This document shows, in pieces, positions 170 through 38,850 of a stretch of DNA of 39,537 nucleotides. This DNA comes from Clostridia bacterium. GTDB taxonomy: Bacteria; Bacillota; Clostridia; Oscillospirales; CAG-272. The DNA lies in contig JAFSGU010000067.1 of NCBI GenBank assembly GCA_017440665.1, positions 1 to 39,537 on the forward strand, read 5' to 3'. The stretch's first letter is position 1, and each line of letters starts with the position of its first letter. A model generated the notes under the pieces. It did not search any database. It had not been told where the DNA came from and worked only from the letters and a program-made list of their open reading frames with translations. The translations under genes and the position numbers were made by a program.

Positions 170-3028
170 TCAATATCTGCCCACCTTGTCGAAATGGTTA
201 TCCGCAAGACCTGAGCTATCTTTTACGGTGTAGTTTCCGTCTGCTGCATTTACAAAATAATTATTTGTGTCAGTAAGACAGTCAATCACGTTATTGTCGA
301 GGTTGTTCCACTCATAAAAATACTTTCCAACCTCGGTTTGAGGATCCGGTACGGTATTACTGCATTCAGCACTCCTGTCATAAGCCAAGGCATAATTGTT
401 TACAATATTACAACCGAATGTATTTGCGGGGCAATGGGGGTCGGAATACCTGTCTTCTGTAATTGTGAGATCATCAGCCGCAGCAAATATCTGAGGCCAC
501 TTTTCCTTCCAGATCGCAAGTGCCGCAGGATCGGTGGGGATCTTTTCGTAAGATTTTAATACGGCAGGCCAAGTGGGAGAAGATTTGAGACTGCTGAGAC
601 CGTCGTAAAGCATCTCTGCATATTTGGGCCAGATACGGAGCATTGGGTATGATTTGAAGGTGGTGCGGATGCAGACGTTGTCGCATATGGTGTTATAGCT
701 TCCTCCGGACATAAGAATTGCATACATTCCGGGATCATAGAACACGTTTCCCTTAACGCTTACGTTACCCATACCGTCATCAAGATATATTCCCCAAGCA
801 GCCATGTGGTTAACGTTTGCGATGATATTATAATTTATCTCGTTTCCGGCATCGGCAACACTTCTGGGGATGTATATCGTCGCAGCGTCACCTACGATGG
901 TGCTGTTAAAGAGGTCGTGAATGAAGTTGTACTCTATCTTGTTGTTGATGTAGTACAATTCATTGTCGAGGTATCCGTTTTCGGGCATCTTGCCGCTTTC
1001 GATAACATAATCACTATAGGGGAATCTGTATTGGAACTCGGCATTACCGTAAATGATACCCGAATGGATTCCATTGTAGATCTCATTGTGAGTGATCTGA
1101 GCACCTACTGCTTCCTGAATAAGTACTGCAGGCTTGTATGTCAGGTACATTTTCTCGAAATCGTGGAAGCTGTTGTTGTCGATAACAAGGCCTCCGGACA
1201 CTACCATGTCACGGTCGCCGCTGTTTCGTACGATAACACCTCCGCCGCACAGATCAGAGAATTCACTTCTCGTGAGTCGGAAGTTTTGACCGTAGGAATA
1301 AATAGTGAACTCATCACCTATGCCAAAGAATGTGCAGGCATCAATGGTAATATTATCACCCTTGATGAAGAAGGCGTAATCATTATTTATGTGCTTGAAG
1401 CTGAATCCCTTGAAGTTAAGATAATTTGCGTTTTCTTCAATATTCACAAAGCACCCCGCAGTTGCGACCGAGTAATTGCTGTGGGGATCATATACGTACA
1501 GAGTCTTTGTGTCAAGATCGATCCAGTATTCGTTCTTTGAGTCAAGCTCCTCGGAGATATTGTGGAATATCATCTTTGCAGATGTGTACATACCCACGTG
1601 AGGCCTTTTTTCGAGGGTGAAAAAATCTGTCTCGGGATCATAATCGATCAGACGCAGGTAGTTGCCGTAGTATTCGTTGCCGAATACACCCGTGAAAAGA
1701 ATATTCTCGTAGGTGTGGTACTTGTCGAATCTTGCGGCAAGGTTGGGAATAAGCTGCGCGTGATATTCATGAGGTCCCGGAGGCTCTGCAACGACACTGT
1801 TGGCATACGCCACGGGCGTCTTACTGTTATTTGCGTTGGGGAAACGCGCTTGAACCTGCATTTCTTCGTCGCTGTACAGGTAGCTGAACATGGTGAGTTC
1901 ACCCACGTAGCTTTTCTCTGAAAGATCGGCTTTCTTGATATGAGAAGTAGCATTTTGGGGGAAAAGATACTTTTCAGCGTCGGTAATAGGACTGAACTCG
2001 TCAAGACTTACCTGAAAACCTGCGTCGAACACAACCTCTCCGTCGCCGTATGCACAATATGTTACGGGAATCTTTTCATTACCGCTGTCGGCTTCGGTGA
2101 ATTCCTGAGTAAATGCGCCGTAGTTGCCCCCTTTGAAGGCTACTACGATCTCGTCCTTTGCGGTTTTCTTGAGTTCGCGCACTTTTGCTACCGCCGCGCC
2201 AAAGGTTGCGAGAGGTTTGTCAAGAGTACCGGGGTTTTTGTCGTTACCGTCTACAGCAACAAAAATATCAGCATCATTTCTGACCTCAAGCACGGGCTCG
2301 GTGAAGCTTTGAAGCGGAATTGGCATATTGAACGCTGACTCGTAGTCAAAATCAGCATTGTTATAGCGCTGAATTATAGTTGCAAACTCAGCTCTTGTAG
2401 CTGTATCGGTGGGGGAAAGAGTTGTCACTCCGCCGCCTGCCTTGCCTGTGATAAGTCCGGCGTACACAGACCACGCAACCGCATCGGTCGCCCATGATGC
2501 AACGGACGTTATATCAGGATATTTTGAAAGATCTGCCTTTCCGGAATTAATCACATATTTGTATTCAGCGTAACGCATGAACATTGTCGCCAGCTCCTGA
2601 CGTGTAATGGAGCGGTCGGGCGAAAAGTAGTACTCTCCCCACTCATTTGTACCCGTGCCGTTGACGATATTATTTTGTCCTGCCCACATCACAGCATCAT
2701 AATAGTATGCGCCGATGTTTACATCTATAAAACCGTCAAAATTATTGTCGGAAGGATTTTTGTATTCATACTTGTTCGCGCGTTCGTTACGGTAAAGAAC
2801 GGTTACCACCATACCTCGTGTAAGGGTCGTCATGGGAGAGAACTTTGTGCCGTCTCCCGTACCGTTCATGAGTCCCGCACCGAATGTGTATGCTACAGCG
2901 TCATAGTACCACTCGCCCTTCGGCACGTCCGTGAAAGGAAGTGTGTCTTCTGCTGAAATACCAATCGTACAAATGCTTAGAAGCATCAGGGCGGCGAGAA
3001 AGGCAGACAGAATTTTTCTTGCTTTCAT
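170..3028 (-). CDS. Gene 1: SLH-anchored beta-helix (GH141-like) surface protein, divergent member
   Basis: 952 residues. The start is at 3028 because AAGGAGAC lies 8 nt upstream and a Sec signal peptide follows directly (MKARK, then a hydrophobic core to about residue 26); the 36 codons further upstream cross the promoter. Three SLH motifs occupy about 31-80, 97-153 and 169-222. The module from about 252 opens with VAVDGNDKNPGT, has the NEYWIDLDTKTLYVYDP block at 499-515 and beta-helix coils at about 540-790. The invariant aspartates are D714 (GDAATIY instead of DYGA or ADGG) and D750 (YLDD). An insertion of about 30 residues (about 662-695) separates the HNE coil from the next coil, longer than in any paralogue. 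The C-terminus is KVGRY, the usual end of this beta-helix family. The GH141-like label is inference; substrate unknown. Stop codon TGA. Confidence 0.93.
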   Translation of the reverse strand: MKARKILSAFLAALMLLSICTIGISAEDTLPFTDVPKGEWYYDAVAYTFGAGLMNGTGDGTKFSPMTTLTRGMVVTVLYRNERANKYEYKNPSDNNFDGFIDVNIGAYYYDAVMWAGQNNIVNGTGTNEWGEYYFSPDRSITRQELATMFMRYAEYKYVINSGKADLSKYPDITSVASWATDAVAWSVYAGLITGKAGGGVTTLSPTDTATRAEFATIIQRYNNADFDYESAFNMPIPLQSFTEPVLEVRNDADIFVAVDGNDKNPGTLDKPLATFGAAVAKVRELKKTAKDEIVVAFKGGNYGAFTQEFTEADSGNEKIPVTYCAYGDGEVVFDAGFQVSLDEFSPITDAEKYLFPQNATSHIKKADLSEKSYVGELTMFSYLYSDEEMQVQARFPNANNSKTPVAYANSVVAEPPGPHEYHAQLIPNLAARFDKYHTYENILFTGVFGNEYYGNYLRLIDYDPETDFFTLEKRPHVGMYTSAKMIFHNISEELDSKNEYWIDLDTKTLYVYDPHSNYSVATAGCFVNIEENANYLNFKGFSFKHINNDYAFFIKGDNITIDACTFFGIGDEFTIYSYGQNFRLTRSEFSDLCGGGVIVRNSGDRDMVVSGGLVIDNNSFHDFEKMYLTYKPAVLIQEAVGAQITHNEIYNGIHSGIIYGNAEFQYRFPYSDYVIESGKMPENGYLDNELYYINNKIEYNFIHDLFNSTIVGDAATIYIPRSVADAGNEINYNIIANVNHMAAWGIYLDDGMGNVSVKGNVFYDPGMYAILMSGGSYNTICDNVCIRTTFKSYPMLRIWPKYAEMLYDGLSSLKSSPTWPAVLKSYEKIPTDPAALAIWKEKWPQIFAAADDLTITEDRYSDPHCPANTFGCNIVNNYALAYDRSAECSNTVPDPQTEVGKYFYEWNNLDNNVIDCLTDTNNYFVNAADGNYTVKDSSGLADNHFDKVGRY

Positions 3029-3070
3029 TTGTTTGTCTCCTTGTTGAATATATAGTATTATACTGTTTTC

Positions 3071-3099: not shown

Positions 3100-3123
3100 G
3101 CAATATTATGATAACAAATGTAA

Positions 3124-3164: not shown

Positions 3165-5999
3165 TCAGTATCTTCCTACCATGTCGAAATGGTTGTCCAT
3201 AAATTCTACTCCGTCGCGGATGGAGTAGTCACCGTGTGTGGGGTCAACGAAGATGGGATTTTCACCCTCGGGAATTTCAAGATTGTTCTCGTGATCGCTG
3301 AGCTCTACCCACTTGTCCGCGAATTCAGACATAGCGCCGTCAAAGTGATAGTTGTTGTGGCAGTAGTTGATGGGGTCAGAGTAAAGATCGAGCTTTGTTA
3401 CGTCGATGTCGGGATTATTGCGGATAGCAACGATATCGTAAAGCTCGGGCCAAAGCTCCTTCCACTTCTGACCGTTTGGAGTATTTTCGTCGGGAATTCG
3501 GTCAAGACCGTTCCAACCCTCACTGTAGTAATGATTGTCAGCTTCGGGAGAACCGTACACTCTGATATCCAGAATGTTAGGCGCTCTGCCTGCAATACCG
3601 GAGGTCTTACCGATAAATACGTTGTCGTAGAACTCATGGCTTCTTCCGCCGTTGTTCATGATCATACCGCTGTTGTAGAAGACGTTACCGTAGCAGATGA
3701 GGTTTTCCATGTTGTCGTCAAGATAGATAGCGTAGGTACCTCCCGTGTGGATGGGGTTGAGCGGGTAAATATCAGATACAACGTTGTATCTGATCTCGTT
3801 ACCTCTGTTGGTAGCAACACGTCCGCAATAGAACGCGCCGCCGTCCGCAGAGTTTTGCATACAGTGGTGGAGATAGTTATACTCCATGATACATAATACG
3901 TTACCGTACTTGAAGTCGATACCGTAGCGAGCTGAGTTGTAGATCTCATTGTGAGACACGTCAGCACCTACCTGATTGGAGAATCTGACAGCACCTGACT
4001 CAACGGGAACGGACGCCATATCAACGTCGTGAACCAGGTTGTTTCTGATAACACAGCCTGTGTTTTCGAGAGCGTAATACTTAGTTTCGTTCTTGCCGCG
4101 GGGGGCCTCAATACAAACTCCGCTTTCAGCGCAGTAGGCAACTGTAGAATTTGTGAATTCAATGAATCGGGTGTCGCTCGAGAGGAAGGCATAGGAGCCG
4201 CCGACGTACATGATCGAGCCCATATCAAAGGTGAAATGATCTCCGTTTGCGATGATAGCGTTACCGGAGCAGCTTCTGAAATTGAGCTTTTTGAACGTGA
4301 TGTACTCAGCACCCTTGTTTATGGTAGCGAAGGTGTCAGCAACAGCCATAGTATAGCTGCCCTGAGGCTTGTATACGTAGAGCACCTTGTTTTCGGCATC
4401 GATCCAGTATTCGCCCACTGCGTCAAGCTCATCGGATACGTTGTTAAGATACGCCTGCTGCTGACTCTCTATCATTGCATAATAGCTGTAATGGGGACCT
4501 GTTGTGGATACGATACCCGTAGCTTTGTCGAAGCCTGTGATATTAAGAACGTCCTGGTGCCAAACCTTTCCTATATATCCGATAAGCTGGATATTTTCAT
4601 ATGAGCTCATTGACGCGAGCTTATCACTTAAGGTATGAAGAGTTTGAAGCTTGTAGTGGTCGATGTGTGTAGATACCTCATCATTTGACTGGGTAACGCC
4701 TGCTTCAACAGCCTCGATAAGCTCGTCCATAGTCTTATAGGGACTGCTTTCAAGCAGCACGTGCTTTGTAAATCCGGGGAAGTATTTATCTATTCCTTTT
4801 TCCTTGTTGGGCGTGCGCGCAAGCCAACAGAAGGAAGTGGAATCGGAGAGAGGAGTGAAGTGGTTGATCTTGTCCGCATTGGGGTCACCGGACAGGTCCG
4901 CCTTCTTGATGTCGCCTGCAAACTCGGGGTTGAAGAACTTAAGATCATCCTCTTCGAGATCGGTGAACTTGTCCTCGGTGACATAGACACCGTTTGTGAA
5001 GTAAACGTCGTCGTCGCCGTAAGCGCAGTAGGTGATCTTTACGTTCTCGTTGCCGCTGTCCTCGGCGGTGAACTGAAGATTGTCAAGAACGCCGTAGTCG
5101 CCGCCCTTGAAGGCAACCTTGATCTCGTCCTTCTTGCCTTCTGCAATAAGCTTACGAACAGCGTCCTTGGCAGCGGCGAAGGTTGCGAGAGGTTTCTCAA
5201 AAGAACCGTCGTTTTTGTCGTTTCCGTCAACCGCAACGTAAATGTCAGCGTCATTAACGAGAGGGTAATCGGGCTCTGTGTAAGAATTTTTGATAACGGG
5301 AGTTTCAAAGGCGAGGTTATACGTGAACTCGCGTGCATCGTCTTTTACGTTGTAACGCTGGATCATGATGGCAAACTCAGCACGTGTTGCAAGATCCTCG
5401 GGTGAGAGGGTAGCCGCACCGCCGCTTGTCTTACCGGTGATAATGCCCGTGCCTGCCGTCCACTTGAACTCCTTTTCAGCCCATGAGGCAACCTTTCCGC
5501 CGTCGGGGAAGGTGGTGATGTCGGTGGTGTTCTTGGCGGTGTCAACGTGCTTGTATGCCGCGTAACGTGCGAACATAGCCGCAAGCTCCTGACGGGTGAT
5601 GTTACGCTCAGCAGAGAAGATGGGGTCGCCCCATTCATCAAAGCCGGTACCCGTTACTACGCCTGCGTTGTAAGCCCAGGTAGCAGCGGTAGCGTACCAT
5701 GCGTCGTCACTTATGTCGGAAAAGGGATTTGAAACGCTGACGGACGGTGAGCCGTCGTTGCGGTAGAGAACAGTCACGACCATGCCGCGGGTCAGGTTCA
5801 TGGTGGGAGAGAACTTTGTTCCGTCACCGGTACCGTTCATAAGGCCCGTGCCGTATGTGTAAGCTACAGCATCGTAGTACCATTCGCCCTTCGGTACGTC
5901 GGTGAAGGGAAGGGTATCTTCAGCGGAAACGCCTACGATGCCTGCAGTTATAAGCATCAGCATGGCGAGCATGGCTGAAATAATTCTTTTTGCGTTCAT
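3165..5999 (-). CDS. Gene 2: SLH-anchored beta-helix (GH141-like) surface protein, subfamily A
   Basis: 944 residues with AAGGAG 7 nt before the ATG. Signal peptide about 1-26, SLH motifs about 31-80, 95-150 and 164-216. The beta-helix module starts at about 250 (VAVDGNDKNDG). It has the subfamily A insert (about 405-465) and the GYIGKVWHQD segment at 474-483, then GEYWIDAENKVLYVYKP at 529-545 and coils at about 565-800. Markers of subfamily A are HNEIYNSAR (683-691) and NSADGGA, with invariant aspartates D719 and D761 (YLDD), 42 apart. The C-terminal region has the YDIVAIRNN and NYCHNNYHF stretches shared with gene 12 and ends in MVGRY. It should be secreted and held on the wall polysaccharide; glycosidase activity is inferred from fold similarity. 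Stop codon TGA. Confidence 0.94.
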   Translation of the reverse strand: MNAKRIISAMLAMLMLITAGIVGVSAEDTLPFTDVPKGEWYYDAVAYTYGTGLMNGTGDGTKFSPTMNLTRGMVVTVLYRNDGSPSVSVSNPFSDISDDAWYATAATWAYNAGVVTGTGFDEWGDPIFSAERNITRQELAAMFARYAAYKHVDTAKNTTDITTFPDGGKVASWAEKEFKWTAGTGIITGKTSGGAATLSPEDLATRAEFAIMIQRYNVKDDAREFTYNLAFETPVIKNSYTEPDYPLVNDADIYVAVDGNDKNDGSFEKPLATFAAAKDAVRKLIAEGKKDEIKVAFKGGDYGVLDNLQFTAEDSGNENVKITYCAYGDDDVYFTNGVYVTEDKFTDLEEDDLKFFNPEFAGDIKKADLSGDPNADKINHFTPLSDSTSFCWLARTPNKEKGIDKYFPGFTKHVLLESSPYKTMDELIEAVEAGVTQSNDEVSTHIDHYKLQTLHTLSDKLASMSSYENIQLIGYIGKVWHQDVLNITGFDKATGIVSTTGPHYSYYAMIESQQQAYLNNVSDELDAVGEYWIDAENKVLYVYKPQGSYTMAVADTFATINKGAEYITFKKLNFRSCSGNAIIANGDHFTFDMGSIMYVGGSYAFLSSDTRFIEFTNSTVAYCAESGVCIEAPRGKNETKYYALENTGCVIRNNLVHDVDMASVPVESGAVRFSNQVGADVSHNEIYNSARYGIDFKYGNVLCIMEYNYLHHCMQNSADGGAFYCGRVATNRGNEIRYNVVSDIYPLNPIHTGGTYAIYLDDNMENLICYGNVFYNSGMIMNNGGRSHEFYDNVFIGKTSGIAGRAPNILDIRVYGSPEADNHYYSEGWNGLDRIPDENTPNGQKWKELWPELYDIVAIRNNPDIDVTKLDLYSDPINYCHNNYHFDGAMSEFADKWVELSDHENNLEIPEGENPIFVDPTHGDYSIRDGVEFMDNHFDMVGRY

Positions 6000-6258: not shown

Positions 6259-8997
6259 TTAGTATCTGCCTATCATCTCATAGTGGTTATCTGCAAACTT
6301 TGTTGTATCGGTGATAGTGTAGTCGCCGTGGGTGGGATCAGCAAAGAAGGGGTTCACGTCGCGTGAATACTCTACGTTATTGCTGTGTACACCGAAGGTG
6401 AGAAGTCCCACGCCCTGCTCAAGGGTACTGCCGATAAGGGCGTTGTCGTTTACGTAGTTGACCGTTCTGTATATACATTCATACTTGTCAATGTCATTGA
6501 AATCGTAGGAGTATTCATACAGGATGGGCCATCTGTCGTACCACTTCTGATAGCTTGCACTGCCTACCGCGGGCTTCTGCTCGATCTCGCCTTTTGCGGC
6601 GCCGGCAGTAGACTCCACGGGTGAGAGGTTTCCTTCCTCATCGATATCCACAGGACCAAGATTGTACATGAAGAAGTCACCGGGGGCACCCTCCGTACGG
6701 ATTGAGATATTGTCGTAAGCTTCGTTTTCACGTCCGCCGTTTGATACGATATCTCTGTCACCAGCGTTAAAGAAGATGTTGCCGTATACCTCCTGGTCGA
6801 AGGAACCGTCGATATAAACACCGTAACAGCCGCCTGCAGAGCGGATGTTTCTGATGATGTTGTGTCTTACGATATTACCTCTGTGGAGGATGGTGTTAAA
6901 GTTGTAGATGGCGCCGTAGTCGATGGTGGAGCTCATCATGTTGTCAAGCACGTTGTACTCCATTACGGTGTCGATACAGCTTCCGAAGGAGATACCTGCG
7001 TGGGCACCGTTAAGGAATTCATTGTGAGAAACGGTGGTTCCTACAAGGTTCGTAAGGTTTACGGCAGCGCCGAATGTCTGAGGGGAAGAAAAATCGTGGA
7101 AATAGTTGTTGGTGATCGTAACGTGAGAGGGAGTGATGTTTGCAAGCTCGGGCCATGAACCGAAGAGGGTAACGCCCTTGTCGTAGAAGTTGTAGAACTC
7201 GCAGTTTTCAACGGTGATGTTGTTTACTCTGTAGCCCCACTCGGTGTAGATACACGCGGAACCTGCAACGTTACCGAAGGTACATCTGTCGAAGGAGATG
7301 TGGTTGGCATCCATGTCGATAGCGTCGTCTGTGGTGGCAATGAAGTCAAGACCTACGAAGCTAATGTGCTCAACCTCCTCTTTAAGGGTGATGAATGTAC
7401 CTGCGGTACTGAGATAATGATTACCCTCGGGCTTGTACATGTAAAGCGTGAAGGTGTTATTGTCAAACCAATACTCGCCTTTAGCGTCGATCTGGTCGGA
7501 GAGATTGTGGAAGTATACGTAGTCGTCCATTCTGCCCTCTTCGGCGAGAACGAAGTCCTCAAGAGTATAGCCGTTGTCGAAGGCGTGAGGATCGGTGAAA
7601 TCGAAGGAAAGCACGCCTGTAGTGGGATCAAAGGATTTTACCTTGAAGGTGTCTACCAGCCATCCGGTGCGGAGCATACCCGTTACCTTCATTCCCTCGG
7701 TGGTTCTGAACTTTGAAACGATTCCGGGGAGATAGCTCTGAAGAAGGATACTTTCGGTCTCATTGTAGGTGGTGGTAACGTTCCAGTACGCCTGCTCCTG
7801 AACGCCTGCTCTGTAGTTGGGGATTCTCGCCTCGTGGCACATGCCGGTTTCGCTGAACATGATGTTCTTGTCGGAGAAATCGGTGACCTTGCCGGTAAGG
7901 TCTATCTTGTATACCATGGACTTGTCCACGTCTCCGAGGAGATAGTAGTCACTCTCGTCCACGGGCTTGAACTCGTCGTTTGCAAGGTAGATACCGTTCT
8001 GGAATACTACCTTGCCGTCTCCGTATGCACAGTAGGTTATGGTGAGCTCGTCGTTACCGCCGTCGTTGGGGGTAAATGTGACGTTGTCAAGCATACCGTA
8101 GTTACCTGCCTTGAAAGCGACCTTGATCTCACCCGATTTTTTGGTCTTCTTGATCTCAAGCACCTTAGCTTTGGCTGCCTCAAAACTTCCGAGAGGCTTT
8201 TCAAAAGTACCGGGGTTCTTGTCATTTCCGTCAACAGCTACGTATACGTCGGCGTCGTCAACGGGGGGATATGCCTTTTCCGTATACTGAGACTTTGCTA
8301 CAGGCGCGGTGTATGCCAGCTTATAAGTAAACTCTCTCTCAGCGTCCTTGTCGTTGAAGCGTCTTATGATAGTGGCAAACTCAGCTCTTGTTGCAAGATC
8401 CTCGGGGGCAAGCAGAGCAGAGCTGCCGGTACCCTTACCGGTGATGATGCCTGTGCCGGACGCCCACTTGAAGGTGTCGGTTGCCCATGAGGCTACCTTG
8501 CCTGCGTCGGGGAACGTTGTGATATCGGCGGTGTTTTTGTCGGTGTCTACGTGACGGTATGCCGCATAACGACCGATCATCGTCGCCAGCTCCTGGCGTG
8601 TGATGTTACGGTCCGGTGAGAAAAGGGGGTCGCCCCAATCATCTGTGCCCGTACCGGTGACTATATTTGACTTATAAGCCCAGTCAGCCGCCAGCGCATA
8701 ATACTTGTCCGCAGTAATGTCTGCAAACGCACCTATGTACGAGGTATCGTGTGAACCGTCGTTGCGGTAGAGGACGGTCACGACCATGCCGCGGGTCAGG
8801 TTCATCATGGGAGAGAACTTTGTGCCGTCTCCCGTGCCGTTCATAAGACCGTTGTCGTAAACGTACTTTACGGCGTCGTAATACCATTCACCCTCGGGAG
8901 TGTCGGTGAAGGGAAGCTTGCTTTCGGCAGAGGTGCCGATGACGCATACGCTGAGCATCATAAGAGTCGCGAGGAGTAATGATAAAAATTTCTTCAT
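6259..8997 (-). CDS. Gene 3: SLH-anchored beta-helix (GH141-like) surface protein, subfamily B
   Basis: 912 residues with AGGAG before the ATG. Signal peptide about 1-25, SLH motifs about 29-78, 92-147 and 161-214. The enzyme module opens with VAVDGNDKNPGTFEKPL. It carries the subfamily B segment (CHEARIPN at 387-394, then GMLRTGWLVDTF at 440-451) and GEYWFDNNTFTLYMYKP at 507-523. Coils run about 540-770. Markers are HNEFLNGAHAGI and STIDYGAIY with invariant aspartates D693 and D730 (YIDG), 37 apart. Closest in the window to genes 5 and 8, sharing VDESDYYLLGDVD. The C-terminal region holds the WPILYEYSYDFNDID and TVNYVNDN stretches and ends in MIGRY. Stop codon TAA, placed at the start of repeat copy 1. 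Wall-attached extracellular location is well supported; the activity is inferred. Confidence 0.94.
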   Translation of the reverse strand: MKKFLSLLLATLMMLSVCVIGTSAESKLPFTDTPEGEWYYDAVKYVYDNGLMNGTGDGTKFSPMMNLTRGMVVTVLYRNDGSHDTSYIGAFADITADKYYALAADWAYKSNIVTGTGTDDWGDPLFSPDRNITRQELATMIGRYAAYRHVDTDKNTADITTFPDAGKVASWATDTFKWASGTGIITGKGTGSSALLAPEDLATRAEFATIIRRFNDKDAEREFTYKLAYTAPVAKSQYTEKAYPPVDDADVYVAVDGNDKNPGTFEKPLGSFEAAKAKVLEIKKTKKSGEIKVAFKAGNYGMLDNVTFTPNDGGNDELTITYCAYGDGKVVFQNGIYLANDEFKPVDESDYYLLGDVDKSMVYKIDLTGKVTDFSDKNIMFSETGMCHEARIPNYRAGVQEQAYWNVTTTYNETESILLQSYLPGIVSKFRTTEGMKVTGMLRTGWLVDTFKVKSFDPTTGVLSFDFTDPHAFDNGYTLEDFVLAEEGRMDDYVYFHNLSDQIDAKGEYWFDNNTFTLYMYKPEGNHYLSTAGTFITLKEEVEHISFVGLDFIATTDDAIDMDANHISFDRCTFGNVAGSACIYTEWGYRVNNITVENCEFYNFYDKGVTLFGSWPELANITPSHVTITNNYFHDFSSPQTFGAAVNLTNLVGTTVSHNEFLNGAHAGISFGSCIDTVMEYNVLDNMMSSTIDYGAIYNFNTILHRGNIVRHNIIRNIRSAGGCYGVYIDGSFDQEVYGNIFFNAGDRDIVSNGGRENEAYDNISIRTEGAPGDFFMYNLGPVDIDEEGNLSPVESTAGAAKGEIEQKPAVGSASYQKWYDRWPILYEYSYDFNDIDKYECIYRTVNYVNDNALIGSTLEQGVGLLTFGVHSNNVEYSRDVNPFFADPTHGDYTITDTTKFADNHYEMIGRY

Positions 8998-29890: not shown

Positions 29891-32629
29891 TTAAGATTCA
29901 TCAGTCCAATAATTTCCTTCGAGGTCGTAACCCTTGAAATCAACCTTTTCCAGAACGCGCCAGAATTCGGGGCGTTCTGTAAACGTATCAAAATCCGGGA
30001 TGTATTGGAAATGTGAAGATAGAATAACATTATACTTCTGCATTTTATCCTGAAGCGCATGGCTGAGCTCCTGTGCAAGCTCGTTATCGGCAGGATCACT
30101 GCTCTTGTAGAGATTATCAAATATTCCGTTCAAATAAACGAAGTCAAACTGAACCGAATTACATTCAACGTTTTCGAACTGTTCCTTTGTTTCGGTACGG
30201 AGCATAGCATCGTTGAAGTTTGCAATGATATCTTCGATTACTTCTCTGAGTCGCAGGTACTGGAATAATATCTGATTATCTGCAAAGAATGCGGTGCCAT
30301 ACTGGAACCCGTGACATCCTGTTTCTTTTTCTGTCCACAGGTAGAATGCCTCGTAAATATCCTCCCAGCCTTTTCCGAAATAACCCTCCATAAATTTTTT
30401 GATGTATCCGTCGTATTCTTCCTCTGACATATAGGGATCCCACATAAGCTGTGTTCTGAGGTATAGAAAGAGACCGCCGAATTCCCAGTCATAAGTATAG
30501 CTTGCGTTGGGGAAATATCCAACTGTATTCAAGTCAGAAATAAAACGGAAGTTAGCAGCAAGATTGTCATACTTAATGTGTGGGAAAGGTGTTGGAGATT
30601 GCGAAAAACAGAAGAGATAGTCCCAGTAATATATATGCTCACAGACATCTGCCCATTTCTTCATCTGAGAACCATAGCGAGGATTGTTGCAACCTCTCTC
30701 AAGATCATGAGAGAAGCAACTGTTAATAGGCGCGAATTCAACCATGATATTGGAGTCTGCCTTGATGTTTTCGGGGGCTTTTTCCGTGTACATATATGAG
30801 AAGGTGTGGATGAGGACATCTCCGTAACCTGCCTTCTCCATATCAGCTGCCATTTTATTAAGGAATGCAACAAGTGTTCCTGATGGACCGCCGTACTTTT
30901 CATCGGATGCTTTGCAATTATCGCATTGACAGTAACCCACATTATCATTTTGAGAGATGGAGATGATATCCGCATCGGGAGTTTCATTCAGCAGTTTGAG
31001 CACATTGGCCAGCATTACCTCATAAACCTCATCACTTGTGAGACAGGGCTGATTCTTATACTGCTCACTGTAGGAAGTGCCGTCGGGAGCATTGTCTAAC
31101 TCGTCAAAGGTGTGACAGCGGCGTATCCATTTAAGCGCGGTATGTCTTTCACGATCAGAATCAACACACGCACGTTCTGCAATAACAGAGCTTTCGGTAT
31201 AATCGAGTCCGGAAATATCAAGCTCGTCGCGGGGAGACAGATACTCACTTGAATAGATAGCGGTACGGCTGCCGGTTTCGCCATGATCGGTCATGTATAT
31301 CCAGCCGATAACGTCATCGATGAGATCATAGCAACCGTAAAGCACGCCTCTTTCGGCAGAACCTGTGATACGGATGTTGTTGCCTTCGGACTTAAGAGAG
31401 AAGTTGTCAATGTTGTCGTTTGGTGAACCGTCAACAACAACGGTCTTTTCTTCCAGGATGATAGCGAAATCTCCGCTTGTTCCGACCTTTGCAGGCAGTT
31501 TTGCTCCGCAGGACATTTCAATGTATTTCTGAAGCTCGGAAACGCCCTTCACGGTCTTTTCGGATGCATTTGCAGGATAGACGATCGTATATTTTGAAAT
31601 ATCGTTTCCGTTAATTGTCAGCTTGCCGATAGGATACTTGAACTCATATCTGTCGTTTGCGGCAGATGTGAACTTTACGTTGTTGTCAAAGGTTGCGCGG
31701 AGGATGAATCTTACCGCCCCCTTGTATATGCCCTCGGAGGTGTCACCCGTAACGGTAACGGTGTCGCCGTCAGCCTTGATCTCGTATCCGTCAGCGCCCA
31801 GCTTATCGTCGTCGACCGCCTTGAGTACGATCGATTTCTTTGATGAAGACTTGCCGACGATATCAAGCTTAACACCCGTGGTGTACTCCACTTGATACTG
31901 AAGTCTGTCAGCCGCATCCTTTGCTGCTTCGTCCGCAACGATAACGTAATCGGACTTTCCGTTCTCAACAACGTCAGCTGTGGTAACGTAGGGGATAAGC
32001 CGCATTGCGATAGTCGCAACCGAAGCTCTGTCAGCCTTGCCTTCGGGATTAAAGTTACCGTTCTGGTCGCCCTGGACGAAGCCGTATTTACGCATGCTTT
32101 CGATATCGGCAGTTGCCCAGCTTGCTATCTTGTCAGCATCAGCAAATTTATCAACCTTAGAGTTGTCGGGGACAGTCTCGCCCAGATACTTTACGAATCT
32201 GACGATAAGCACCGCCATCTCCTGACGGGTGATCTCACGGGCAGGCGAGAAAGTAGTCGCAGAGGTACCGGTGGAAAGCCCCGTTTCAACAGCCCACCCC
32301 GCAGCGTCTGCGTACCATGCATCGGGATCGGTATCGGTGAAGTCGAGTTTATCCGCGTAACCGTAGTTTGCCGCGTTGATAGCCGCAAGGCGGGAGAGTA
32401 CGGTTACAAACTCAGCGCGTGACATGGGAGCTGAAGGGTCAAACTGCGTGTCAGTCTTGCCTTTCATGAGACCGGATTCGTAAACGTCAGCTACCGCGTC
32501 GTAGTACCATTCACCCTCGGGCACGTCGGTGAAGGGAAGTTTTTCTTCAGCGGAACTTACGCCGGTAACGCATACGCCGAGAAGCATTATCGCGGCGAGA
32601 AGCACCGAAAGAATTTTTGTTGCGGTCAT
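29891..32629 (-). CDS. Gene 11: SLH-anchored DUF4838 glycoside-hydrolase-like protein
   Basis: 912 residues, AAAGGAG before the ATG. Signal peptide about 1-27, nearly the same as in gene 9. Three SLH motifs (about 32-82, 95-148, 160-212) are canonical (SRAEF, TRQEM, DRASV) and differ from those of the 12 neighbours. Two successive alpha/beta domains of the GH67-N/GH20b type follow (about 226-310 with LQYQVEYTTGVKLDIV and GADGYEIKADGDTVTVTG; about 346-440 with LQKYIEMSCGAKLPAKV and RITGSAERGVLYGCYDLID). DUF4838 covers about 475-780, with ISISQNDNVGYCQCDNC at 556-572 (C567, C569, C572) and the PSGT segment at 582-585. It lacks the beta-helix and the GRY end. Family members are thought to act on carbohydrates, but I know of no proven activity. 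The CxCxxC cluster may bind metal or form disulfides. Stop codon TAA. Confidence 0.93.
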   Translation of the reverse strand: MTATKILSVLLAAIMLLGVCVTGVSSAEEKLPFTDVPEGEWYYDAVADVYESGLMKGKTDTQFDPSAPMSRAEFVTVLSRLAAINAANYGYADKLDFTDTDPDAWYADAAGWAVETGLSTGTSATTFSPAREITRQEMAVLIVRFVKYLGETVPDNSKVDKFADADKIASWATADIESMRKYGFVQGDQNGNFNPEGKADRASVATIAMRLIPYVTTADVVENGKSDYVIVADEAAKDAADRLQYQVEYTTGVKLDIVGKSSSKKSIVLKAVDDDKLGADGYEIKADGDTVTVTGDTSEGIYKGAVRFILRATFDNNVKFTSAANDRYEFKYPIGKLTINGNDISKYTIVYPANASEKTVKGVSELQKYIEMSCGAKLPAKVGTSGDFAIILEEKTVVVDGSPNDNIDNFSLKSEGNNIRITGSAERGVLYGCYDLIDDVIGWIYMTDHGETGSRTAIYSSEYLSPRDELDISGLDYTESSVIAERACVDSDRERHTALKWIRRCHTFDELDNAPDGTSYSEQYKNQPCLTSDEVYEVMLANVLKLLNETPDADIISISQNDNVGYCQCDNCKASDEKYGGPSGTLVAFLNKMAADMEKAGYGDVLIHTFSYMYTEKAPENIKADSNIMVEFAPINSCFSHDLERGCNNPRYGSQMKKWADVCEHIYYWDYLFCFSQSPTPFPHIKYDNLAANFRFISDLNTVGYFPNASYTYDWEFGGLFLYLRTQLMWDPYMSEEEYDGYIKKFMEGYFGKGWEDIYEAFYLWTEKETGCHGFQYGTAFFADNQILFQYLRLREVIEDIIANFNDAMLRTETKEQFENVECNSVQFDFVYLNGIFDNLYKSSDPADNELAQELSHALQDKMQKYNVILSSHFQYIPDFDTFTERPEFWRVLEKVDFKGYDLEGNYWTDES

Positions 32630-32670
32630 TAGTTTTTCTCCTTTGAAATATTGTATAATATGCTGTTTTT

Positions 32671-32699
32671 ATTATACAGTACACAAGGGTTTTTGTCAA
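32671..32699 (-). promoter_or_regulatory. Promoter of gene 11
   Basis: TTGACA (32694-32699), 17 bp, TATAAT (32671-32676) on the minus strand: full consensus. Confidence 0.92.
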
Positions 32700-32703
32700 G
32701 AAA

Positions 32704-32728
32704 ATTTGTACGGTTACACCATACAAAT
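32704..32728 (-). promoter_or_regulatory. Operator-like dyad upstream of gene 11
   Basis: Arms 32704-32714 and 32718-32728 match at 10 of 11 positions around TAC. The centre is 17 bp upstream of the -35 edge. The sequence is the gene 9 type, so the DUF4838 gene shares this site with beta-helix genes. Confidence 0.58.
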
Positions 32729-32755
32729 ATCCCCCGCCGCAGGCGGGGGATATTT
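32725..32755 (-). terminator. Terminator-like hairpin after gene 12
   Basis: A perfect 14-bp stem (32725-32738 with 32742-32755, loop GCA) with core CCCCCGCC/GGCGGGGG. Confidence 0.72.
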
Positions 32756-32894
32756 CGAGTTATCAGTTATGAGTTTTGCTTTCGCAAAACGTTATGAATC
32801 TGCAAGACAGACGTTATGAGATATGTGGACAGCTTATAACGATGCGAAGCATCCCATAACTCATAGTTTTTCCGCAGGGAAACCATAACTTATT
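32756..32894. repeat. Intergenic multi-hairpin repeat, copy 5
   Basis: It contains GTTTTGC/GCAAAAC, a TCTG/CAGA hairpin, GATGC-GAA-GCATC and a TTTCC/GGAAA hairpin in the same order as copies 4 and 6. It starts at the TAA of gene 12. Confidence 0.87.
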
Positions 32895-35753
32895 TTAGTA
32901 TCTGCCGATCTTGTCATACTGGATATCAGCAAATTTTGAGGTGTCGGTGATGGTGTAGTCGCCGTGAGTGGGGTCTGCGAAGAAGGGGTTTTCGGTAAGA
33001 GGCAGTTCAGGATTGTTCTTGTTATCGCTGTACTGAACCCATAAATCGTCAAAATAATGCTCGCCGCCGAATACGTAGTTATTGTGGCAGACGTTTGCAG
33101 GCTTCTTGTAAAGATCGGTAGTCTTATAAAAGTCGGGATCGTCTGCGTGTTCGGCTATGGCAAGGATGTCGTAGAGATCGGGCCAAAGCTCAAACCACTT
33201 TTTGCCGTTTTCGGAATTCTTAGCGGGGAGGTTACCCTTGAAGTTGCCCCAGATCTCGTCGCTGTTTGAGAAGCCAACGCCGTTAACGAAGAGTAAGTAG
33301 TCGGAAACGTCGTAGAGCCAATCTGCATATCCGGTGATACCGCTGGCACCGTCACGTGTACAAATGAACAGGTTGTCACAGATCACGTGATCTCGTCCTC
33401 TGTTGTTAAGAACGCCGGCACCTGAATTAAAGAAAATGTTCTTTTCAATAATGAGGTTAGCGTGGGAGTCGTCAATGTAGATACCCATTGTACCGCCTGT
33501 GTGTGCTCCGCTGGGGTTGTAGCAGTCTGCAACCAGATTGTAGCGGATTGTGGTTCCACGGTGAGAGATACGTCTGCCGGTGTAGATGGTGCCGCCGTCT
33601 GCGGAGTTGAGCATACAGTGATGGAAGTAGTTGTAGGAGATATCCATCAGTATACCGTCGCGGAAGTTGATAGCCGCACGTGAGGAGTTGTAGACCTCGT
33701 TGTGGGTTACGGCTGTCTTTACTGCACGGACGATCTCGATTCCGGTAGCGCCGGTGCCGCCGTCGGTGATTGCAACATCGTGAATGAGGTTGTTGTCAAT
33801 TACGTTTCTGTCGCTCTCAAGGCTCTGAGGATCGTATTCCGGGAAGTCATCAGTAGGACCGTAAACGGCTACAGCAGTGCAGGCGTTGAAAGCAAACTCG
33901 CTGTTGATGATCTTGGTGTCGATCACACAGTCAACGTATAAGCCGCGTCTGCCGCCAACGTACATGATACTGCCCTGGTCAAATGTGAAGCTTCTTGCTG
34001 TGTATACGTCGATCGCGTCCTGAGTACAACCTCTGAAATTGAGGCCGCGGAGTGTGAAGTTGTCGATCTTTCTTGCTGTGATAAAGGTGTCGTGTGTACT
34101 GAAGAGGTACTCTCCGTGGGGATTGTACACGTAAAGTGTCTTTGTTTCGGGATTGAACCAGTATTCGCCGTCTGTGTCAAGGTCAGAGCATACGCCAAGG
34201 ATGAATATGTTTCTGACAGTATCCTCATAGTTAACGAATCCGTAGTTGGGGGACTGCTCAAGTGTGATGATACCCGTTTCTTTGTCGTAGCTGTCGATGG
34301 GAAGAGTCTCAGCGTGCCATACCTTAGAGATAAATCCGCTGAGCTTACCCTTGCTGAGGTATTCGGGATTATACGTATCAAGACGGGATTTGAATCCTGT
34401 AAGAGTATAGATGCTCTTCTGGTTGATCAATGTTTTGAGCTCAGCATCGGTTACACCGTTCTGGATCGCATTCATGATCTCTTCTTCGGTATGACCGTCA
34501 GCAGGGAACTGTTTGATAACGGAACCGCCGATGTACATGTCTACAAGTCCGTTCTTGTTGGGGTATCTCGCCTCTGTAACGATACCGCTTGAATTGAAGA
34601 GCACACTGGACTCGCTGATGTTACCTGCATTTGCGAATGAAGAAAGGTCAAGCTTCAAAATGGATTTTTCAGCAGTGTCGTCGAACAGAGCCTTGTCACT
34701 ATCGCTGAGCGGCTTGAATTCATCAGCTTTCAGATAAACGCCGTTTGTGAAGTAAACGGGACCGTCTCCGTACGCGCAGTATGTGATGTTGAGGTTGGCG
34801 TTACCGCCGTCCTCGGTTGTAAGCTGAATATTATCAAGCACGCCGTAGTCGCCACCCTTGAAGGCTACAACTATCTTACCGCTTGTTTTTGTTTTCTTTA
34901 TTTCCTGTACCTTAGCCTTAGCTGCTGCAAAGGTAGCAAGAGGCTTTTCAAGAGTACCGGGGTTGCTGTCGTTACCGTCAACTGCTACGTATACGTCAGC
35001 GTCCTTTACAAGGGGATATTCCTTTTCGGTGTACTGAGATTTTACAACGGGACTCTCATATGCAAGCTTGTACGTGAACTCACGTGCGTCATCCTTTACG
35101 TTGTAACGCTGGATCATAATAGCAAACTCAGCGCGGGTAGCAAGATCCGTGGGAGCAAGTGTTGTCGCACCGCCATTTGATTTACCAGTGATGATACCTG
35201 TGCCGGCAGTCCACTTGAATTCCTTTTCAGCCCAGCTTGCAACACTGCTGCTGTCGGGGAAACTTGTGATGTCAGTGGTATTCTTTGTGGTGTCAACGTG
35301 ACGGTAAGCCGCATAACGGGCGAACATAGCAGCCAGCTCCTGACGGGTAATGTTGCGGTCGGGAGAGAAAATCGGGTCACCCCAATCGTCATACCCCGTA
35401 CCGGTAACCACGTTAACATTGTATGCCCATATTGCGGCAGCAGCATAATACTCATCGCCGCTTATGTCGCAGAATGGATTTTTGGAAGTGTTTGCATTCG
35501 CACCGTCGTTACGGTAGAGAACGGTAACGACCATGCCACGGGTCAGATTCATGGCGGGTGAGAACTTTGTTCCGTCGCCTGTGCCGTTCATGAGACCTGC
35601 CGCATAGGTGTATGCTACCGCGTCGTAGTACCATTCGCCCTCGGGAGTGTCGGTGAAGGGAAGCTTTTTGTCAGCTGAGCTTATGCCGGTAATGCATACG
35701 CTGAGAAGCATTACTGTGGCGAGAAGCACTGAAAGGATTTTTGTGAATCTCAT
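32895..35753 (-). CDS. Gene 12: SLH-anchored beta-helix (GH141-like) surface protein, subfamily A
   Basis: 952 residues, AAGGAGAC before the ATG. Signal peptide about 1-27, SLH motifs about 32-81, 96-151 and 165-217. The module from about 253 opens VAVDGNDSNPGTLEKPL. It carries the subfamily A insert (HTEEEIMNAIQNG) and GFISKVWHAETLPIDSYD, then GEYWFNPETKTLYVYNP at 529-545 (N replaces D). Coils run about 560-800. Markers are HNEVYNSSRAAI and NSADGGTIYTGR. The invariant aspartates are D719 and D761 (YIDD), 42 apart, as in gene 2. The C-terminal part (WPDLYDILAIAEHADD, ANVCHNNYVF) also matches gene 2, so genes 2 and 12 are subfamily A from end to end. It ends in DKIGRY. Stop codon TAA next to repeat copy 5. 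Confidence 0.94.
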   Translation of the reverse strand: MRFTKILSVLLATVMLLSVCITGISSADKKLPFTDTPEGEWYYDAVAYTYAAGLMNGTGDGTKFSPAMNLTRGMVVTVLYRNDGANANTSKNPFCDISGDEYYAAAAIWAYNVNVVTGTGYDDWGDPIFSPDRNITRQELAAMFARYAAYRHVDTTKNTTDITSFPDSSSVASWAEKEFKWTAGTGIITGKSNGGATTLAPTDLATRAEFAIMIQRYNVKDDAREFTYKLAYESPVVKSQYTEKEYPLVKDADVYVAVDGNDSNPGTLEKPLATFAAAKAKVQEIKKTKTSGKIVVAFKGGDYGVLDNIQLTTEDGGNANLNITYCAYGDGPVYFTNGVYLKADEFKPLSDSDKALFDDTAEKSILKLDLSSFANAGNISESSVLFNSSGIVTEARYPNKNGLVDMYIGGSVIKQFPADGHTEEEIMNAIQNGVTDAELKTLINQKSIYTLTGFKSRLDTYNPEYLSKGKLSGFISKVWHAETLPIDSYDKETGIITLEQSPNYGFVNYEDTVRNIFILGVCSDLDTDGEYWFNPETKTLYVYNPHGEYLFSTHDTFITARKIDNFTLRGLNFRGCTQDAIDVYTARSFTFDQGSIMYVGGRRGLYVDCVIDTKIINSEFAFNACTAVAVYGPTDDFPEYDPQSLESDRNVIDNNLIHDVAITDGGTGATGIEIVRAVKTAVTHNEVYNSSRAAINFRDGILMDISYNYFHHCMLNSADGGTIYTGRRISHRGTTIRYNLVADCYNPSGAHTGGTMGIYIDDSHANLIIEKNIFFNSGAGVLNNRGRDHVICDNLFICTRDGASGITGYADWLYDVSDYLLFVNGVGFSNSDEIWGNFKGNLPAKNSENGKKWFELWPDLYDILAIAEHADDPDFYKTTDLYKKPANVCHNNYVFGGEHYFDDLWVQYSDNKNNPELPLTENPFFADPTHGDYTITDTSKFADIQYDKIGRY

Positions 35754-36021: not shown

Positions 36022-38850
36022 TTAATATCTGCCGATCTTGTCGAAGTGGTTGTTGGGCATAGACACACCCTTTGCAGGCGAGTAGTCACCGTGGGTGGGG
36101 TCTGCGAAATACTCGTTAGTGTCTGTGGTAAGCTCTAAGTTACCCTCGTAGTCACCGAACTTGTCGGCGATAGAGTTTTCTTCGATAGAGCAGGACATAT
36201 CGAACAGATAGTTGTTCTTGATGTGGTTTATGGTATAGTAGATACACTGGGGACCCTTGTTAACGTCCTTGAAATCAAGGTGGAAGTCGTAGAGAAGAGG
36301 CCATGTCTCACGCCACAGATCGTAGTAGGGCTCGCCCTCTTCAGGCTTGCGAGAGAGATTTTGGAAGGTTGCGTTTACCTCTTCATCGGGACCGATCTTG
36401 ATCTCCTCGGTCGGCTCCTCGTCGATCATGTCGGAGTTGTAGAGCATGAAGGAGCTCTTGGGATTGCCGGAGTTGATGCAGACGTTCTCATAAACGTGGT
36501 TGTCGCGTCCGCCGTTAAGGACCACGTTTACAGCAGCGGCACCGTAGAATACGTTACCGTAGATGTTCCATGCGTGAGCGCCGTCGTTGTAGATGGCGTA
36601 CTGTACGCCGGTCCTGTTGGGAATATCGGTGAAAAGGTTGTATCTTATGTTACTGTCTCTGAAGGTAAGAGATCTGAAGCCGTAAACAACGCCGCCGTCT
36701 GCAGAATTGAGCATACAGTGGTGGAAGTAGTTGTACGCGATGTCCGTCATGATGCAATCATCAAAGCGGATAGCACAGCGGTCGGAATTGTAGATCTCGT
36801 TGTGGGTGATCTGGCTCTTGACCGTATTGCAGAGACGGATACCTGAGGTGTCAACGCCTACCGTAATGAGACCGATGTCGTGGATGGCGTTGTTGTCGAT
36901 AACCAGACCGTCGCTGATGAGCGCGTCGGGGTGGTAGCCCTCAACGGCGTATTCGCTTGTGGGAGACTGAATATGTAATCCCTCGTCGGCAAAGTATGCA
37001 AGCTCGCTGTTTGTGATCTTCACGTTGATACATTCGTCTGCCTCAAAGCCGTAGGTGCCGCCTGAATAGAGAAGTGTACCCATGTCAAACGTGAATCCGT
37101 TACAGCATGAAAGTTTTATGGATGTGTCGGTAGCACCGCGGAAATTCAGCTTCACGAAGGAGATATTATTTGCTTTTTCCATCGTGACGAATGTATCCTG
37201 ATGTCCCATCAGGTACTTGCCTGCGGGAGCGTATACGTAGAGGGTCTTGGTGGAAGCGTCAAACCAGTACTCACCGTCACAGTCAAGGTCGACAGGGGCA
37301 CCTGAGATATAAACGGCCGCGTAGTTCTCATCGTAGTTTACAAATCCGTACTGTGGTGACTGCTTGAAGCTTATGATACCTGTTGACTTGTCATAGGACT
37401 CGATCTCAAGGTTGTCAGCGTGCCATATCTTTGAGATGTTACCGCATATCATTACGCCATCAAGAGAGGGATACTTGTCAAGCTGAGCCTTGAACTGAGC
37501 GAGAGCGGTTACCTTTTTCTGCTCGGTCAAGGTTTTGAGAAGATCCTGGTCTCCCGATGTCTGCGCGATCTCCATCAGCTCCTCGTGAGTGTGTCCGGGA
37601 AGGGGAATCTGCTGTACGATAGAGCCTTCGATATTGGTAGCTTTGTTACCGATTTCATTAGGGTATCTTGCAACCGTACAAAAACCGTCGTCGTTAAAGA
37701 GCATGCTTGAAGAATCGAAAAGGTCAGCCGCCTTGGATGCGGAAAGATCTACCTTCTTGATGCTTGCTGCAGCCTTGCTGTCGAAGAGAGCTTTTTCAGC
37801 ATCGCTGAGAGCCTTGAATTCGCTTTCTTCAATGAACACACCGCCGGTGAAGTAAACGGGACTGTCACCGTAAGCGCAGTAGGTGATCTTGAAATCCTTG
37901 TTACCGCTGTCCTCGGTGGTGAACTGAAGGTTGTTAAGTGCGCCGTAATCGCCGCCCTTGAAGGCTACTACGATCTCGCCCTTCTTGCCGGACTTGATGA
38001 GATCACGAACCTTTGCCTTAGCGCCTTCGAAGGTGGCAAGAGGCTTTTCGAGAGTTCCGTCATTCTTGTCGTTTCCATCAACTGCAACGTAGATGTCAGC
38101 ATTCTTTACGAGAGGATAATCCTTCTCGGTGAAGCTTGACTTCAGTACGGGCTTTTCGTATGCGAGAAGGTATGTGAACTCTCTTGCGTCATCCTTTACG
38201 TTGTAACGCTGGATCATGATGGCAAACTCAGCGCGGGTAGCAAGGTCCTCGGGAGCAAGAGTGGTTTCGCCGCCGTTCGCCTTACCTGTGATAATACCCG
38301 TGCCTGCGGTCCACTTGAATTCCTTTTCAGCCCATGAGGCAACCTTTCCGCTGTCGGGGAAAGAAGTGATATCAGTTGTGTTTTGGGTAGTGTCAACATG
38401 CTTGTAAGCCGCATAGCGTGCAAACATTGCCGCCAGCTCCTGACGGGTGATGTTGCGCTCGGGGGAGAAGAGGGGATCGCCCCATTCGTCCGTACCCGTA
38501 CCGGAGACCACCTGTGCCTCATAAGCCCAGGTGATGGCGGTGGCATACCACGCATCGTCGTTCACGTCCGAGAAGGGGTTGGAAATGCTGACTTCGGGAG
38601 AGCCGTCGTTACGGTAGAGAACGGTAACGACCATGCCTCGGGTAAGGTTCATGGCGGGGGAGAACTTTGTTCCGTCACCCGTGCCGTTCATAAGTCCTGC
38701 AGAGTAGGTATACGCTACCGCGTTGTAATACCACTCACCTGCGGGAACGTCCGTGAAGGGGAGCTTGTCTTCTGCCATGATGCCTGCAGTACATACGCCC
38801 AGAAGCATAACTGCGACGAGAACAGCAGAAAGAAATCTTGTCATTTTCAT
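36022..38850 (-). CDS. Gene 13: SLH-anchored beta-helix (GH141-like) surface protein, subfamily A with B-like C-terminus
   Basis: 942 residues, AAGGAGAC before the ATG; first gene of the array in transcription order. Signal peptide about 1-26, SLH motifs about 31-80, 95-150 and 164-216. The module from about 252 opens VAVDGNDKNDGTLEKPL. The middle is subfamily A (HTHEELME at 420-427, GNISKIWHADNLEIESYD at 470-487), with GEYWFDASTKTLYVYAP at 526-542. Coils run about 560-795. HNEIYNSDRCAI and NSADGGVVYGFR are A-type, with aspartate D718. The next conserved aspartate is D756 in YNDG, 38 away. After about residue 790 the sequence becomes B-like (WPLLYDFHLDFKD, YTINHIKNN, DKFGDYEGNLE), close to gene 5 and unlike genes 2 and 12. 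It ends in DKIGRY. Stop codon TAA. Confidence 0.94.
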   Translation of the reverse strand: MKMTRFLSAVLVAVMLLGVCTAGIMAEDKLPFTDVPAGEWYYNAVAYTYSAGLMNGTGDGTKFSPAMNLTRGMVVTVLYRNDGSPEVSISNPFSDVNDDAWYATAITWAYEAQVVSGTGTDEWGDPLFSPERNITRQELAAMFARYAAYKHVDTTQNTTDITSFPDSGKVASWAEKEFKWTAGTGIITGKANGGETTLAPEDLATRAEFAIMIQRYNVKDDAREFTYLLAYEKPVLKSSFTEKDYPLVKNADIYVAVDGNDKNDGTLEKPLATFEGAKAKVRDLIKSGKKGEIVVAFKGGDYGALNNLQFTTEDSGNKDFKITYCAYGDSPVYFTGGVFIEESEFKALSDAEKALFDSKAAASIKKVDLSASKAADLFDSSSMLFNDDGFCTVARYPNEIGNKATNIEGSIVQQIPLPGHTHEELMEIAQTSGDQDLLKTLTEQKKVTALAQFKAQLDKYPSLDGVMICGNISKIWHADNLEIESYDKSTGIISFKQSPQYGFVNYDENYAAVYISGAPVDLDCDGEYWFDASTKTLYVYAPAGKYLMGHQDTFVTMEKANNISFVKLNFRGATDTSIKLSCCNGFTFDMGTLLYSGGTYGFEADECINVKITNSELAYFADEGLHIQSPTSEYAVEGYHPDALISDGLVIDNNAIHDIGLITVGVDTSGIRLCNTVKSQITHNEIYNSDRCAIRFDDCIMTDIAYNYFHHCMLNSADGGVVYGFRSLTFRDSNIRYNLFTDIPNRTGVQYAIYNDGAHAWNIYGNVFYGAAAVNVVLNGGRDNHVYENVCINSGNPKSSFMLYNSDMIDEEPTEEIKIGPDEEVNATFQNLSRKPEEGEPYYDLWRETWPLLYDFHLDFKDVNKGPQCIYYTINHIKNNYLFDMSCSIEENSIADKFGDYEGNLELTTDTNEYFADPTHGDYSPAKGVSMPNNHFDKIGRY

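Follow-up and report, generated by a model that had tools for sequence, protein, structure and literature searches.

Organization of the array

The window, that is, the whole 39,537-nucleotide (nt) stretch of DNA that was analyzed, corresponds to contig C32 in its entirety; the contig belongs to a draft metagenome-assembled genome (MAG; 1.57 Mb, 88 contigs, 55.6% complete) from a Clostridia bacterium. The open reading frame (ORF) listing of the window contained 13 long ORFs, all on the minus strand, which tile positions 170–38850 and are called g1 to g13 here (Table 1). Their products combine an N-terminal anchor of surface-layer homology (SLH) repeats with a large C-terminal module, which is related to glycoside hydrolase family 141 (GH141) in 12 genes and is DUF4838 in g11. 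The intergenic spacers measured 134–268 nt and the coding fraction was 0.93, which leaves no room for another gene of ordinary size between the array genes. The likely start codons of g1 and g8 are the ATGs at 3028 and 23658, which lie 3′ of the respective promoters, rather than the ORF starts GTG 3136 and TTG 23685; with these corrections, the proteins are 906–952 residues long. No frameshift or internal stop was found in the 13 genes when the ORFs and translations were inspected, and domain scans of the 13 proteins gave no match to a transporter, regulator, cohesin, or dockerin. A first-pass annotation of the same sequence had described 13 intact, co-oriented genes for proteins of 906–952 residues with no transporter or regulator among them, and the description holds on both counts.

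Table 1. Coordinates of the array genes, of one example each of the promoters and spacers, and of the right neighbor
Feature	Position	Strand	Description
g1	170..3028	-	signal-like N-terminus, 3 SLH, GH141-type beta-helix, 952 aa from ATG 3028; TTGACA-17-TATACT, -10 ends 3071
g2	3165..5999	-	SLH + GH141-type module, 944 aa; -10 ends 6062
g3	6259..8997	-	SLH + GH141-type module, 912 aa; -10 ends 9037
g4	9132..11867	-	SLH + GH141-type module, 911 aa; -10 ends 11910
g5	12021..14786	-	SLH + GH141-type module, 921 aa; -10 ends 14830; sole module modelled
g6	14924..17644	-	SLH + GH141-type module, 906 aa; -10 ends 17687
g7	17894..20650	-	SLH + GH141-type module, 918 aa; -10 ends 20689
g8	20905..23658	-	SLH + GH141-type module, 917 aa from ATG 23658; -10 ends 23702
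g9	23843..26614	-	SLH + GH141-type module, 923 aa; -10 ends 26656
g10	26879..29662	-	SLH + GH141-type module, 927 aa; -10 ends 29706
g11	29891..32629	-	SLH of another type + DUF4838, 912 aa; -10 ends 32671
g12	32895..35753	-	SLH + GH141-type module, 952 aa; -10 ends 35799
g13	36022..38850	-	SLH + GH141-type module, 942 aa; -10 ends 38884
g13 promoter (example of 13)	38884..38912	-	TTGACA-17-TATAAT, perfect match
g12-g11 spacer (example)	32630..32894	-	array-confined repeat, stable hairpin, second hairpin, promoter
ppdK start (pyruvate phosphate dikinase)	39164..39535	+	divergent right neighbor, outside array

Domains, fold, and conserved residues

The SLH profile PF00395 matched all 13 proteins (E 1e-18 to 3e-31), in each case behind a signal-like N-terminal stretch; signal peptides were judged by eye, without a predictor. 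PF13229 (Beta_helix) scored above its curated cut-off of 25.9 bits in 10 of the 12 GH141-type modules and just below it in g2 (24.1) and g13 (24.9), and DUF4838 was found in g11 (E 1.3e-57). These profiles, including the PF13229 search that the first-pass annotation had proposed, agree with its assignment of 12 GH141-like proteins and one DUF4838 protein, all SLH-anchored. An NCBIfam scan of 8 of the 13 proteins gave mainly a match of the SLH region to an unrelated model, and PF22842 (Pel9A-like_beta_helix), pre-listed for many homologues, stayed below its cut-off in the source genome.

A profile built from the 12 modules matched the GH141 enzyme BT_1002 (5mqp) with an E value of 4e-26. The g5 module was modelled with a mean predicted local distance difference test score (pLDDT) of 91.9, and a fold search identified the model as a right-handed parallel beta-helix like that of BT_1002, with 18% identity over the structural alignment. 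Profile and fold thus agree on a GH141-type identity. PDB entry 9rx2, the top sequence match, was absent among the fold-search matches listed.

The catalytic Asp pair, equivalent to D523 and D564 of BT_1002, was kept in the array modules, which are 32–59% identical to that of g5. Among the 168 sequences with a match, the 130 that covered enough of the module were aligned; the first Asp was present in 130 of 130. The second, recognized by a Y-x-D motif, was present in all 12 window modules and in 123 of the 130 rows, and a count by strict alignment column, alignment shifts included, gave 98 of 130. The first-pass annotation had named two outcomes that would speak against it, the absence of a significant match of any module to a carbohydrate-active family and the loss of the conserved aspartates in orthologues; neither occurred.

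In the 12 GH141-type genes, Trp and Arg were found 12 of 12 times in each of the three SLH repeats, and the full set of ligand residues (Trp, Gly, and Arg) was kept in every repeat. According to a report on Paenibacillus alvei SpaA, these residues bind the pyruvylated wall polymer in the SLH trimer (PMC6081394). We infer from these sequence features that the array proteins are exported and bound to a pyruvylated wall polymer and that their modules probably cut glycans. Support for the enzyme reading extends to family, fold, and catalytic residues.

Promoters and spacers

Fourteen promoter-like sites matching at least 11 of 12 consensus letters were detected in the window, and 13 of them sit 33–62 nt upstream of the 13 ATGs, all with a 17-nt spacer. 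Resampled sequences (n = 30) had a mean of 0.6 such sites and a maximum of 2. Each of the 12 inter-gene spacers contained a hairpin of -19 to -30 kcal/mol; for four spacers, the value also covers a second hairpin. With a predicted promoter for every gene and a hairpin in every spacer, the array probably consists of 13 separately started, likely insulated transcription units rather than an operon.

The spacers also contained repeated sequences. A second inverted repeat (ATTTGT..GGT/ACC..ACAAAT) was located directly 5′ of the -35 element upstream of g2, g7, g9, and g11, for example at 6091–6123 and 26685–26717; a matched change on both arms was seen between copies, and the g12 copy was imperfect. 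This element could be an operator or part of a terminator. A repeat of about 135 nt was found upstream of g2, g6, g7, g9, g11, and g12, with shorter matches at g2 and g6. A genome-wide mobile repeat was considered for these spacers and rejected: the 135-nt probe matched seven places, six of them within the array, and the repeat therefore seems to have travelled together with the array.

Separate histories of anchors and modules

Among 129 sequences, 94 had a recognizable boundary between the SLH region and the module, and 83 full-length proteins from 10 genomes, with both a full anchor and a full module, were cut at this boundary; contig-end partials were excluded. Mean anchor identity was 0.669 within genomes and 0.476 between genomes, and the corresponding values for modules were 0.381 and 0.330. 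The nearest anchor came from the same genome for 69 of the 83 proteins, against 10.6 expected from label shuffling, and the nearest module for 30 of the 83. Genome labels required 18 changes on the anchor tree and 41 on the module tree, the minimum being 9. Approximately unbiased (AU) tests, for groups picked after the trees had been viewed, rejected both module-based pairings tried on the anchor data (p 1.8e-58 and 1.9e-4) and a single roe deer clade on the module data (p 4.5e-6).

The same pattern was observed for individual genes. The g13 module was 67% identical to one in a roe deer genome, the anchors just 41%, whereas g13 and g10 were 80% identical in the anchor and 37% in the module. 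For the 27 cross-genome pairs whose modules shared 55% identity or more, 49 of the 54 partners had a closer anchor in their own genome, and in 17 pairs the anchors resembled each other less than the modules did. The 120 closest public proteins included five, encoded outside the window, with a module identity of 90% or more to a window gene. For g5 and P0001, the modules were 97% identical, the signal and first SLH repeat 86%, the second repeat 72%, and the third 99%; for g13, the module was 97% identical to that of P0034 (anchor 74–86%) and 93% identical to that of P0046 (anchor 58–68%); for g12 and P0096, the values were 90% and 66–82%.

The promoter region and the first ~46 codons of g11 matched those of g9 and g12, despite an unrelated head and another SLH type. 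Between g11 and g9, nucleotide matches were 83–92% in most blocks across the spacer, the signal peptide, and the ~46 codons, with 70% over the 60 nt preceding the start, and fell to 61% and 48% farther downstream. Of 66 window pairs, 61 had a lower level of synonymous difference in the anchor than in the module, and for one pair from the roe deer genome D4705 the proportion of synonymous differences (pS) was 0.16 for the anchor and 0.75 for the module.

The 46 other SLH proteins of the source genome (two short fragments left out) included eight full-length GH141-type proteins; these numbers are lower bounds, as 150 of 190 candidates were scored. Anchors of the GH141-type genes elsewhere in the genome were 53–74% identical to those of the array and anchors of non-GH141 SLH proteins 31–48%, indicating that the likeness belongs to the GH141-type subfamily and not to all SLH proteins of the cell.

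Distribution in relatives

Module-profile matches were obtained in all 11 congeners searched, with at least 17 in each of nine in a count limited to about 20 scored matches per genome. The four congeners that were counted in full had 50, 47, 35, and 28 matches in genomes of 2.3–2.5 Mb, where a single gene can yield two rows. Two congeners lacked the expansion, with 6 (G004) and 2 (G005) matches; both genomes are nearly complete, and their matches are divergent. The expansion thus arose within the genus, or else these two congeners have lost it. In the tree of the 130 modules, 108 rows from the source genome and nine congeners formed one clade, and the G004 and G005 rows (L030, L035, and L046) fell outside it. 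Arrays of three to six genes recurred in relatives, and in G003 a DUF4838 gene again stood beside GH141-type genes. The search for the same array in related genomes, suggested in the first-pass annotation, thus revealed an expansion in nine of the 11 congeners together with recurring smaller arrays.

Beyond the genus, 5 of 47 relatives gave matches. The 78 loci from named genomes comprised 60 that came from uncultured Clostridia MAGs or from a single MAG titled uncultured Ruminococcus, and 18 from other phyla; the Clostridia MAGs came from the guts of sheep, goat, roe deer, and horse. All 18 other genomes, which had been picked for holding a relative, had matches, from 2 to 33 each. The 33 match rows, two of them from adjacent genes, were from a genome titled Phycisphaerae (G060, locus L108), so a GH141 expansion alone is neither new nor unique to the genus.

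Eight changes of the window label were needed on the module tree, where several modules adjoined orthologues of other species; locally, g3, g5, g8, and g10 grouped together, and g2 with g12. Recent whole-gene tandem duplication was therefore rejected as the origin of all copies. The divergence of the modules and these eight label changes fit differing specificities; the enzymes may each be tuned to a different linkage, as the first-pass annotation had proposed. Two unusual genes were noted among the relatives: a single 1618-residue frame with two tandem GH141-type modules (G003:C16:31549-35688) and, in a roe deer genome, a gene with one TGA inside the module (L060:3199-5910; G008:C63:23703-25661), the only internal-stop case among the matches listed.

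Interpretation and alternative explanations

For seven orthologous module pairs, the nonsynonymous divergence (dN) was 0.11–0.34 and the synonymous divergence (dS) ranged from 0.72 to saturated. Low dN against high dS indicates that amino acid change in the modules is restrained by purifying selection, and this dN/dS comparison bears out the earlier suggestion that the copies are maintained by selection.

Taken together, we regard it as probable that the products of 13 genes with their own promoters, 12 GH141-type hydrolases and one DUF4838 protein, are attached to the cell wall by SLH anchors, and that gene conversion acting on a 5′ cassette homogenizes the anchors, whereas the heads stay distinct, old, and under purifying selection. 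Each enzyme would be transcribed alone and then exported, and its SLH trimer would dock it to the same wall polymer as all the others, so that a set of related glycan-cutting heads would be exposed. Recopying of the anchor end from a neighboring gene would leave a new or diverging head with a socket matched to its own cell's wall. A broader proposal, which we put forward tentatively and hold to be somewhat less likely than its negation, is that genes within a genome, even those of different enzyme families (from GH141 to DUF4838), receive copies of a 5′ cassette made up of promoter, signal peptide, and SLH anchor, by which a bacterium could gain and diversify surface enzymes with every head keeping an own-wall anchor; such a common-socket system, distinct from polysaccharide utilization loci (PULs) and cellulosomes, would have built large GH141-type sets in most of one uncultured herbivore-gut genus.

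The likeness of anchors within a genome could have arisen without recombination if the wall polymer selects the same SLH sequence in each lineage, by convergence or slow evolution. The fixed ligand residues in the 12 GH141-type genes agree with such selection, and the 31–48% identity of other SLH families' anchors to those of the array would allow each subfamily a constraint of its own. However, convergence would not lower synonymous differences, as seen in the window pairs and the D4705 pair, or carry along the non-coding promoter and spacer sequence common to g9, g11, and g12; gene conversion of the 5′ cassette is favored, and we consider convergence improbable. Nor is the whole pattern easily obtained as an assembly artefact, since it extends over 10 genomes whose anchors are mostly well below 95% identical. 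We infer that the anchors became alike within a genome through recombination and not through assembly error or convergence.

The first-pass annotation had named a diversifying adhesin or surface-antigen family as its main alternative, in which the beta-helix heads bind or mask and their variation serves host or niche recognition instead of catalysis. Such a family predicts diversifying heads on stable anchors, the exposed head being the part that ought to change, and the data lean the opposite way, with modules under purifying selection; this alternative is disfavored, and we give it a small chance. The restrained amino acid change in the modules and the kept SLH ligand residues are more in keeping with a functional wall-anchored enzyme than with an antigen family. 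A silent-cassette system, with a single copy expressed at once and the common 5′ end used for switching, would explain the clustering of many genes that have the 5′ anchor end in common and diverge beyond it, and an exchange of 5′ ends is indicated here as well. Nevertheless, all 13 copies have a near-consensus promoter (at least 11 of 12 letters), a start codon, and a signal-like N-terminus, and all lie in one orientation, so that inversion between copies would not switch them; we regard such a system as very improbable.

A number of observations weigh against the proposal of separately expressed anchored enzymes with converted anchors. The anchor was at least as alike as the module in 10 of the 27 cross-genome pairs, and there was no anchor–module conflict in the pairs g9/S6494_L066 and S5957_L088/G2706_L093. 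The pair g10/P0009 shows no swap (module 96%, anchor 90–97%), and SLH and module identity were correlated within the window (r 0.45). Joins inside shared anchor sequence in draft MAGs could mimic single swaps, such as that of g5 and P0001. A terminator scan that requires a T-run found no excess over shuffled sequences (19 vs 18.7 and 16 vs 18.8) and listed the main hairpin for only five spacers out of 12, those upstream of g1, g3, g4, g5, and g8; termination is thus a less secure prediction than initiation. Three congeners contributed five array loci with 22 GH141-type genes, none of which had a site of at least 11 of 12 letters within 130 nt upstream (best 10), with start codons guessed by a script, some wrongly; some reading frames abut in these loci. 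Separate units are accordingly indicated for the source window only. One roe deer row (L053) lacked the second Asp motif. Finally, fucose isomerase was present in three of five genomes, so that pathway content names no sugar.

Relation to known systems

Members of GH141 include the alpha-L-fucosidase BT_1002, the xylanase Xyn141E, and the Wf141 endo-fucanases. The array modules resemble them in the beta-helix fold and in having both catalytic Asp residues at the same places; they differ in bearing SLH repeats, in standing 12 to an array, and, from BT_1002, in sequence, as given above for the g5 model. The family has few characterized enzymes, with three reported activities (PMC12786026), and a 2023 review puts reported GH141 genes at no more than two per genome (PMC10154630). 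GH141 with a dockerin was reported for a rumen Ruminococcus (PMC7480376).

Like other Gram-positive SLH-anchored glycoside hydrolases, the array proteins have SLH repeats with the ligand Trp, Gly, and Arg, but here a single enzyme family has been multiplied on one anchor subfamily that evolves in concert in each genome. With PULs and cellulosomes, the array has in common that genes for carbohydrate-active enzymes with a predicted surface location are clustered in the genome, and it differs in the own predicted promoter of each gene. Enzyme genes adjoining genes for transporters, binding proteins, or regulators, as expected of a PUL, were not found: the spacers are short, and the right neighbor is the divergent ppdK (TIGR01828, E 1.7e-55). 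On the left, the contig ends 169 nt beyond the 3′ end of g1, with a hairpin in between, and since this boundary is the contig end, the array may extend farther left. No tRNA or Rfam feature was found in the window.

The sap S-layer locus of Campylobacter fetus is also a cluster of genes with a common 5′ anchor end and divergent remainders, of which one copy is expressed at once. The present array differs in that each of the 13 genes has a promoter, all point the same way, and the heads resemble enzymes in which the catalytic residues are conserved; the arrangement of one promoter with other copies silent is not what the sequence contains, given a promoter-like site at 13 of 13 genes. The open-access text that was searched showed neither a comparable array nor SLH anchors undergoing gene conversion.

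Beyond the first-pass annotation, the analysis adds a predicted promoter for each gene, the hairpins between the genes, the enlarged family of most congeners, and the differing histories of anchors and modules. If the proposal is true, it describes a Gram-positive route to a large surface-enzyme repertoire, in which gene conversion refreshes conserved sockets and the heads are free to specialize. The array supplies a dozen divergent GH141 members, by which the mapping of sequence to specificity becomes directly testable. As relatives come from sheep, goat, deer, and horse guts, the attacked glycan may matter for herbivore digestion.

Other SLH proteins and gene content

Among the other SLH proteins of the source genome, 30 were scanned with Pfam and carried GH43 (2), DUF4838 (2), metallophosphatase (4), CotH (2), and other domains. 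Per genome, gene content comprised 1–5 GH43, 5–7 sulfatase, and 1–4 DUF4838 matches, a composition that pointed to no particular substrate. A first look at two further genomes gave 385 SLH candidates in G002 (2.5 Mb) and 254 in G003 (2.3 Mb), of which 150 were scored in each; this is a large SLH surface repertoire. Loci L135, L137, L139, L142, and L148 contained SLH-bearing CotH (2), metallophosphatases (4), and a nucleoside hydrolase, which suggest surface scavenging of phosphate or nucleotides as well.
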